Source of the DNA: an uncultured Cellulophaga sp.
Lineage (GTDB): Bacteria > Bacteroidota > Bacteroidia > Flavobacteriales > Flavobacteriaceae
Length of the DNA: 64,000 bases
Direction: 5' to 3'
Assembly (NCBI GenBank): GCA_947492955.1
Contig: CANLOV010000004.1
Location: forward strand, 248,001-312,000
Below the pieces are notes generated by a model. It was not told where the DNA came from. It did not search any database and saw only the letters and a list, made by a program, of their open reading frames with translations. Below, one piece after another: positions 50,902 through 52,971 of this stretch (position 1 is the first letter of the stretch; the number at the start of each line of letters is the position of its first letter). The position numbers were made by a program, and so were the translations under genes.

Positions 50902-52971
50902 ATGATGAAAAAAGCAATATTTATTTTTATTCTCTTTCCAATACTTATATATGGAAATAAAACAGAAACACCTTCTAAAATAGATAAAGTAATAGTTTAT
51001 TTAAATGGAGCATCTATATCTAGAACAGCTACTTGCAACTTAAACTCTGGCGTTTCTGAAATTACATTTACAAATTTATCTACAAAAATAGACGAAACAA
51101 GTATTCAGGTTTCGGGTTTAAAATCTGCCTCTATATTATCTATTTCTTATGATATTAATTATTTAGATAAAACCACAGCTTCTCCTGAATCAAAAAAATT
51201 ATTAAATGCTATTGAAAAGCTAAATTTAGAAGTTTCATTACTTAAGAATACTATTTTAGGTTTAGAAGAAGAAGAGCTTGTTATTACTAGTAATAGAGCC
51301 GTAAATTCCAGATTAAAAACACTCGACTTGGAAAAAATTAAAAGTATAAGTACCTATTACAGAAAACGTATTACTGAAATTAAAAATGAAATTTATACCA
51401 CTAATTTAAAAGTTAATGCGTTAGCTAAAAAAATTAAAAACATACAACAACAACTGGCAGAATTAAACAGCACTCCTTCCGAACCACAAGGAGAAATTAC
51501 TATAAAGTTCGATTCTCCTATACCAGTTTCATTAAATCTAAATTTAAAATATAATGTTCAAAATGCAGGATGGATTCCTAATTACAATATTAAATCTAAA
51601 AATATAGAAGACCCTTTACAACTAACATATAAAGCGCATGTATACCAAAAAACGGGGGTAAATTGGGATAATGTAGCTATTAGTTTATCTACAGGAAACC
51701 CCAATAGGTTTGTTACTAAACCAGAAGTGAATGCGCATTACTTAAACTTTGGAAGAAGAAAAAATTATCAAGCAAAATCAAATATAAAACAGAAATACAA
51801 TTACAATCCAATAGTGCGAAAGGTTACAGGTATTGTTACCGATGAGTCTGGAGCACCATTGCCAGGTTGTAATGTAATAGTAAAAGGAACAAGTAATGGT
51901 ACAGTTACCGATTTTGATGGTTTTTATGCTATGGATATTACCAACGGTCAAGAATTAGAATTTTCATACATAGGTTTTTCTTCTACAAGTATCCCTATTT
52001 ATTCTTCTCTAATAAATATAAAATTAGAAGAAGACGGGAGTCAGTTAGAAGAAGTTATAGTTGTTGGTTATGGAGCACAGAAGAGAAGTGCTGTAACAGG
52101 GGCGGTTACTAGTGTTAAAAATGAAAGAATAGGAAAGAGTAAAAATATAAGAATTAGAGGAGCTTCTAACGTTGTACAAGAACAAAAACCGCTTTATGTT
52201 ATAGATGGTATTCCTGTAGAAGATTATGAAGATGGAGACTTAGATCCTAATGAAATACAAAGTATAGACGTTTTAAAAGATGAGGCTTCTACAGCTATTT
52301 ATGGCAGTAGAGGAGCCAATGGAATAGTAATTATAACTACCAAAAAGAGTACTGTAGAAGAAGATATTACTACCGTAAAGTTTAATATTAAAAAAACATA
52401 CTCTATTGTTTCTGATGGAGATATTACTGCAATAGAGATTAATACTTTTAATTTAAATGCTTCTTATGAGTATTTTGCTGCTCCTATATTAGATGAAAAT
52501 GTATTTTTAACAGCTACATTTAAAGATTGGGAAAAATTAAATTTATTACCTGGTGAAGCCAATATTTATTTTAATGGAGCTTATGCAGGAAAAACAAATT
52601 TGAACCCATACACAACAAAAAAGGAAATTACGGTTTCTATGGGTATGGATGATGCTATTGAAATAACAAGAAGCCATAATAGAAATTTTAAAAGCAAATC
52701 TTTTACAGGCAGTAGCAGAGTTTTAGACAGAACTTATGATATTGAAATAAAAAACAATAAAACAATTCCAATTAATTTAAAATTAGTAGACCGCATTCCT
52801 ATTTCGCAAAACAAGGAAATTAAAGTAGATAATATAGAAACCTATAACGCTACTCATGACAAGAAAAAAGGAATTTTAACATGGCAATTAAAACTAAATG
52901 GTAAAGAAGATAAAAAAGAAAGTTTTTCGTACCAAGTTAAATACCCTAGAGGAAAGCAAATAACACTTTAG
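50902..52971 (+). CDS. MuiA-like DUF4139 protein with an internal carboxypeptidase-regulatory plus TonB-plug insertion
   Basis: 689 residues. Signal peptide about 1-19 (IFIFILFPILIYGNK). Residues 26-120 are the DUF4140 N-terminal domain of mucoidy-inhibitor (MuiA) proteins (IDKVIVYLNGASISRTA). A coiled coil covers about 140-190. DUF4139 begins about 198 (LNLNLKYNVQNAGWIPNYNI, VYQKTGVNWDNVAISLSTGNP) and is interrupted at about 303-483. The insertion contains a CarboxypepD_reg domain (VTGIVTDESGAPLPGCNVIV) and a SusC-type plug (EEVIVVGYGAQKRSAVTGAV, PLYVIDGIPVEDYE, IDVLKDEASTAIYGSRGANG). DUF4139 resumes and ends at the C-terminus (TYDIEIKNNKTIPINLKLVD). No outer-membrane barrel follows the plug. 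Confidence 0.85.
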   Translation: MMKKAIFIFILFPILIYGNKTETPSKIDKVIVYLNGASISRTATCNLNSGVSEITFTNLSTKIDETSIQVSGLKSASILSISYDINYLDKTTASPESKKLLNAIEKLNLEVSLLKNTILGLEEEELVITSNRAVNSRLKTLDLEKIKSISTYYRKRITEIKNEIYTTNLKVNALAKKIKNIQQQLAELNSTPSEPQGEITIKFDSPIPVSLNLNLKYNVQNAGWIPNYNIKSKNIEDPLQLTYKAHVYQKTGVNWDNVAISLSTGNPNRFVTKPEVNAHYLNFGRRKNYQAKSNIKQKYNYNPIVRKVTGIVTDESGAPLPGCNVIVKGTSNGTVTDFDGFYAMDITNGQELEFSYIGFSSTSIPIYSSLINIKLEEDGSQLEEVIVVGYGAQKRSAVTGAVTSVKNERIGKSKNIRIRGASNVVQEQKPLYVIDGIPVEDYEDGDLDPNEIQSIDVLKDEASTAIYGSRGANGIVIITTKKSTVEEDITTVKFNIKKTYSIVSDGDITAIEINTFNLNASYEYFAAPILDENVFLTATFKDWEKLNLLPGEANIYFNGAYAGKTNLNPYTTKKEITVSMGMDDAIEITRSHNRNFKSKSFTGSSRVLDRTYDIEIKNNKTIPINLKLVDRIPISQNKEIKVDNIETYNATHDKKKGILTWQLKLNGKEDKKESFSYQVKYPRGKQITL

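Follow-up and report, generated by a model that had tools for sequence, protein, structure and literature searches.

A SusC-type receptor front end without a barrel in the DUF4139 linker of a MuiA-family protein, and its relatives in Bacteroidota

We found that a MuiA-family gene of an uncultured Cellulophaga sp., located in a stretch of 64,000 nucleotides analysed here as a whole (hereafter, the window), encodes the front end of a SusC receptor (a carboxypeptidase-regulatory domain, a TonB box and a plug core) within its DUF4139 domain. The insertion site is a permissive linker of DUF4139 that is common across relatives; across the phylum, this linker is empty or contains plug relics, a plug alone, a regulatory domain with a TonB box, or all three. 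The best-kept element is the regulatory domain together with its flexible TonB box, which points to docking as the likely job of the insert, and the explanation that we favour, tentatively, is that a captured receptor front end has been kept as a docking handle for TonB–ExbBD or another envelope partner. The protein consists of known domains in a new arrangement, and its interest comes mainly from the presence of the NTE and the box outside a receptor. In the PMC literature (most subscription papers are outside its scope), we found no description of this arrangement, no paper joining DUF4139 with TonB or the mucoidy inhibitor with TonB and the plug, none joining the plug domain and SusC with BlaR1, and none joining any two of the TonB-dependent receptor plug, M56 and the carboxypeptidase-like regulatory domain.

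Host protein and anatomy of the insert

Pfam and NCBIfam matches agree with the preliminary description in placing a SusC-type regulatory domain, TonB box and plug without a barrel in the protein encoded from position 50902 (Table 1). The body of the protein has DUF4140 followed by DUF4139 (Pfam), the order found in the MuiA family, and is matched above the cut-off in two stretches by the MuiA model TIGR02231 (NCBIfam). DUF4139 was recovered as a single Pfam match (residues 213–683, 157.7 bits) with a large internal gap over the insert, and homologues that lack the insert align to the sequence flanking it on either side; the earlier claim that the module lies within one DUF4139 domain therefore holds, and this domain, judging from the alignments, probably closes around the insert. 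The protein is probably secreted and periplasmic.

Table 1. Features of the MuiA-family gene and its product, with positions in the window.
Feature	Residues	Position	Strand	Basis or remark
MuiA-family gene	689 aa	50902..52971	+	reading frame uninterrupted; TIGR02231 253.6 bits, cut-off 112.6
Signal peptide, probable, without lipobox cysteine	1–18	50902..50955	+	by eye
DUF4140	30–124	50989..51273	+	Pfam PF13600, 73.1 bits
Helical stretch, probably coiled-coil	95–189	51184..51468	+	helices 95–131 and 143–189 in low-confidence model
DUF4139, first part	213–284	51538..51753	+	Pfam PF13598; homologues
Carboxypeptidase-regulatory domain, SusC NTE type	306–382	51817..52047	+	Pfam PF13715; top Foldseek match is NTE of SusC BT3090
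TonB box EEVIVVGYG	383–391	52048..52074	+	place and letters as SusC TonB box (VDEVVV in Bt1763)
Linker left from lost N-terminal third of plug	392–415	52075..52146	+	lowest conservation in genus
Plug core IRIRG...PLYVIDG...YGSRGANGIVIITTKK	416–484	52147..52353	+	Pfam Plug profile 37–107; TIGR04057
DUF4139, second part	494–683	52381..52950	+	Pfam PF13598; homologues

The segment initially delimited at 51817–52350 does correspond to residues 306–483, but the true insert is slightly longer (approximately residues 300–487). It was matched by CarbopepD_reg_2 (PF13715; residues 308–387, 58 bits, cut-off 32.2) and by the SusC/RagA signature TIGR04057 (NCBIfam; residues 451–481, 57.1 bits, cut-off 46.2). 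Contrary to the preliminary description, it is not a clean copy of the N-terminal part of SusC: the Pfam Plug match (residues 403–475, 44.1 bits) begins at profile position 37 and extends to position 107 of 107, so that the plug is incomplete, and the ALQGKVAGV...GAPG stretch of SusC proteins from the same genome has no counterpart in the alignment. The SusC receptor model TIGR04056 reached 213.7 bits, under its cut-off of 368.25, and no family of the 22-strand outer-membrane barrel was present among the Pfam matches of the protein, DUF4139 lying on both flanks. The module thus resembles SusC/RagA (TIGR04056) in having the regulatory domain, TonB box and plug core in identical order, together with the TIGR04057 signature, and differs from it in lacking the N-terminal third of the plug and the barrel and in being located inside DUF4139. 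Against SusC proteins of its own genome, the best match reaches 53% identity across residues 308–421, giving no sign of recent conversion.

An AlphaFold2 model of the whole protein, built from a shallow alignment (6 sequences; mean pLDDT 46.4), was used for the coiled-coil helices only. A model of the insert alone (8 sequences) had a mean pLDDT of 64.4, with approximately 80–89 in the regulatory domain, <50 in the box and the following linker, and approximately 56–71 in the plug core. With this model, the first two Foldseek matches were SusC NTE domains; the rmsd was 0.8 over 72 columns for 9hfj and 12.3 over 95 columns for 6ytc, which hence superposes in part only, and matches reaching a SusC plug ranked far lower (8aa4, rank 41). 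The closest solved relatives by sequence were SusC and RagA chains: all 14 matches of a PDB sequence search (whole-protein alignment, E up to 0.01) are in the insert region, and none of them covers the DUF4139 body.

The upstream neighbour of the gene is DCC1-like (Pfam), and, judged by eye on their sequences, other neighbouring genes in the window encode MutS2, a dicarboxylate symporter and chorismate synthase. A second Cellulophaga locus (L009) has the same gene order with two extra genes in between. No tonB, exbB or susC gene was seen next to the MuiA-family gene (64-kb window, by eye), which counts against the docking reading.

Insertion site, distribution and origin

Using a profile made from 18 proteins with neither regulatory domain nor plug, we mapped the inserts to approximately profile positions 290–340, a poorly conserved linker of DUF4139. 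The body of the window protein exceeds the cut-offs of the MuiA and DUF4140–DUF4139 models (TIGR02231, PF13600 and PF13598); these models have no such insert, and the linker of insert-less relatives is 27–71 residues long. DUF4139 was present in 29 of 60 genomes searched, including all 18 of the window's genus (its own genome counted), and spanned 1,350–1,413 bases in these 18 members versus 909–978 in the insert-less proteins of the same search. Each of the 17 other genus proteins was read and contained a regulatory domain and a plug. With the insert carried by 18 of 18 genomes and the frame open throughout, an assembly chimera, which the first reading of the sequence had already discounted, is ruled out.

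We then classified a panel of 95 proteins, which is not a random sample: 2 initial proteins, 29 of the 30 loci of the 60-genome search (the duplicate of the window being dropped), and the 30 best and 34 further matches of a wider search, these 34 remaining from 40 hand-chosen matches after removal of 6 weak or unmatched loci. On the basis of profiles built from the SusC-type front ends of nine loci (six SusC proteins and a YfbK-type protein of the window's genome, and two SusC proteins from other genomes), 27 panel proteins had the regulatory domain alone, 22 had it together with the plug, 7 had a plug alone and 39 lacked both. The 39 include L042, whose 178-residue insert was missed by the profiles and has a Pfam regulatory domain just below the cut-off (31.6 versus 32.3 bits). 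No relative was found among viral contigs.

Within the family, DUF4139 was found in 95 of 397 genomes. Its span in 91 full-length places (13 partial rows excluded) was 299–320 residues in 17, 393–436 in 30 and 454–500 in 44; these 44 carry an insert of the size seen in the window, and the architecture, at first taken to be singular, is instead widespread. We read 49 family loci (29 returned by the search and 20 hand-chosen, broken and partial ones among them), and the 46 usable segments contained neither domain (10), the regulatory domain only (18) or both (18; one place twice), indicating that insert size tracks domain content, with most of the 91 places classed by size alone. The search for the same architecture in Flavobacteriaceae, which had been proposed as a check, thus returned many relatives, and a rare assembly artefact is ruled out. 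The inserts form a gradation: some have a nearly complete plug (L023, L076 and L188–L190), those of the genus a shortened one, and others a TonB box followed by an LxGKVAGVxIRG remnant.

The remaining three of the 49 loci (L185–L187) were broken. At L185, the MuiA frame is interrupted in or near the insert by an internal stop and a frame change, and at L186 a frame change lies inside the plug of the MuiA gene; each represents a pseudogene or a sequencing error. At L187 (784–3999, + strand), the second part of a MuiA protein with a plug end (by eye) is directly behind an 806-residue open reading frame, the last 367 residues of which match the barrel family OMP_b-brl_3. The first part of this MuiA gene is absent from the match list of that genome, and the arrangement is either a rearrangement or an assembly join.

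Traces of the module were also detected in linkers assigned to neither domain. We compared 37 such linkers of >30 residues with 500 shuffles and with random stretches from the bodies of the same proteins, using motif patterns written after the sequences had been viewed. An LQGxVAG-like motif was present in 5 of 37 linkers (shuffle mean 0.04, maximum 1; body stretches mean 0), as was a TonB-box-like motif (shuffle mean 0.1, maximum 1; body stretches mean 0.06), and an IRG motif in 3 of 37 was not above the shuffles (mean 0.25, maximum 3; body stretches mean 0.13). The relics are compatible with a complete front end in an ancestor that eroded in parallel in different lineages.

In a tree of the bodies (95 rows, insert removed), the four insert states required 13 changes versus 46.5 in shuffles. 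The proteins with regulatory domain and plug formed one group needing one change (support 60), and a 24-row clade that includes the plug-less L087 had a support of 100. A tree of the regulatory domain (93 rows, 86 columns), the resolution of which is limited to the family, contained 12 changes between MuiA and SusC or other proteins, only 2 of which were forced by starred branches. Here, the same 24 rows formed a single group (support 80) from which 15 SusC-type rows were separate, among them those of the window's genome. Within the family, the module would be old, inherited along with the MuiA gene and trimmed differently by different lineages. Either many lineages once possessed a complete front end or the module was captured several times.

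By eye, the inserts of L013, L083, L103 and L104 contain plug-derived pieces ordered unlike those of SusC (for example, an LQGxVSG stretch ahead of a TonB-box-like stretch). Those of L019, L042, L045 and L098 contain a VRGxR...YYVDGV-like stretch that recalls the plugs of non-SusC receptors (by eye). Pfam Plug was matched below the cut-off in L042 and L019 (E of 0.012–0.015) and had no match in the inserts of L045 and L098. These inserts may represent a second source of capture.

Conservation and possible role of the insert

Comparison of the 18 genus proteins (mean identity of 153 pairs) showed that the TonB box (residues 383–391) is the most conserved part (76%), followed by the second part of DUF4139 (71%), the regulatory domain (66%), the plug core and the first part of DUF4139 (65% each), DUF4140 with the coiled coil (58%) and, lowest, the linker behind the box (residues 392–417; 46%). 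In 23 close pairs, which exclude the window protein and have many dS values near saturation, dN/dS was 0.08–0.28 for the insert and 0.04–0.30 for the body, indicating purifying selection on the insert, slightly weaker than that on the body. Two of these comparisons count against the docking reading: in 19 of 23 pairs the insert has a higher dN/dS than the body, and in one of the 18 genus members (L021) the box region is shortened, EEVIV being followed by a gap. It is very improbable that the insert is a functionless passenger, that is, a set of slowly eroding segments captured from receptor genes by a tolerant linker. Graded sizes, relics and re-ordered pieces at one site, as well as reading frames that are disrupted within the insert at L185 and L186, are consistent with such a history, but the purifying selection, the box being conserved most, and an insert that stays in frame in all 18 genus members argue against it.

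The box is also well kept where the plug has been lost. In 45 plug-less inserts with a regulatory domain, the information content was 2.64 bits in the box columns, 1.95 in the domain and 1.03 in the linker that follows. A strict TonB box pattern was matched by 35 of these 45, by 37 of 40 inserts that have a plug and by 6 of 49 linkers containing neither domain; by eye, 8 of the 10 plug-less inserts that fail the strict pattern hold a near variant (SEVVV, for example). Retention of the box has exceptions: only 1 of 7 plug-only inserts has the strict form. That plug-less inserts usually keep the box argues against a plug-centred role, such as the decoy or cap suggested at first, with the barrel-less plug competing for TonB or binding either a ligand or an empty barrel. 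We regard such a role as improbable: although the genus has retained both box and plug core under selection, the regulatory domain is kept and the plug domain lost in 27 of 95 panel proteins and 18 of 46 further segments, and the plug of the window protein is without its N-terminal third.

The docking reading draws on studies of receptors and secretion. According to the part of PMC7782687 on which we rely, the TonB box VDEVVV of Bt1763 is required for growth on levan and follows the NTE (PF13715), outside the folded NTE, in a flexible stretch; its authors state that the role of the NTE in SusC receptors is unknown and suggest that it may confer specificity for TonB orthologues. The corresponding part of PMC12204202 describes the regulatory domain as implicated in TonB interaction (citing Pollet 2021) and, on this ground, proposes force transduction to PorE. 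By the same logic, the best-kept piece of the insert would be a TonB docking peptide. Two further observations were counted in favour of docking: the box of the window protein falls in a stretch with pLDDT <50, which parallels the flexibility of the box in Bt1763, and the window's genome contains six TonB_C matches. The MuiA-family protein carries the SusC regulatory domain, TonB box and plug in its DUF4139 linker; we propose that TonB of the ExbBD motor may bind the box, and that this binding would tether or pull the envelope protein; the plug remnant would be a secondary part, frequently lost. Alternatively, the box may be retained because it contributes to some other binding strand.

The partner might also differ. 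If the regulatory domain serves Bacteroidota generally as a periplasmic adaptor, the module would dock to the outer-membrane assembly machinery (BAM) or to SusC receptor complexes, which we consider unlikely. Deletion of the NTE in Bt1763 abolishes growth, perhaps through biogenesis (PMC7782687, in the part used here), and the Foldseek matches of the insert include a BAM complex chain from F. johnsoniae (9n2d_E; E of 1.3e-4, rank 11), but the identity of this chain as BamP is only putative. Similarly, the folded domains of BamP bind BamD and POTRA domains, according to the portion of PMC12611786 drawn on here, and the NCBIfam BamP model weakly matches residues 1–131 of the YfbK-type protein (33.1 bits, cut-off 230), yet the window protein has no BamP match at E up to 1 and the word carboxypeptidase is absent from PMC12611786. 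Docking to BAM or SusC also leaves the retention of a flexible TonB box unexplained.

Other barrel-less plug proteins

The window's genome contains 47 Plug matches, 45 of which are above the cut-off; 4 of the 47 are in three proteins that, when read, have no barrel (the barrel check covered these three proteins). Besides the window protein, these are a YfbK-type VWA protein (L124:4700–6790, − strand, contig C3 of the same genome) and a 218-residue protein with two plug-like units that is encoded by the adjoining gene (L124:6795–7451, − strand). The YfbK-type protein resembles the window protein in having a regulatory domain, TonB box and plug without a barrel, and differs in that its module is N-terminal and followed by VWA and YfbK_C domains. 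PorE (PG1058) of the type IX secretion system is likewise a barrel-less envelope protein with a carboxypeptidase-regulatory fold and a proposed role in force transduction, but has TPR, propeller and OmpA-like domains, and no plug is mentioned in the part of the source used.

It is possible, if somewhat unlikely, that MuiA/DUF4139 proteins, YfbK-type VWA proteins and perhaps others form a class of barrel-less TonB clients in Bacteroidota that acquired a receptor front end, the NTE and box of which would allow tethering or pulling by ExbBD–TonB; the motor would then drive work in the envelope beyond import. If TonB does bind the insert, TonB would have clients that are not transporters. The MuiA insert and its partial relatives separate the NTE, the TonB box and a dispensable plug from the membrane barrel in a protein that is probably soluble, and thus offer a simple way to learn what the NTE and box bind.

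A further plug-containing protein is encoded on contig C5 of the same genome (L125:1801–3522, + strand), where a BlaI-type repressor is followed by an M56/BlaR1-type protein that has two plug halves at its C terminus, with the SusC/RagA signature at 52 bits (cut-off 46.2).
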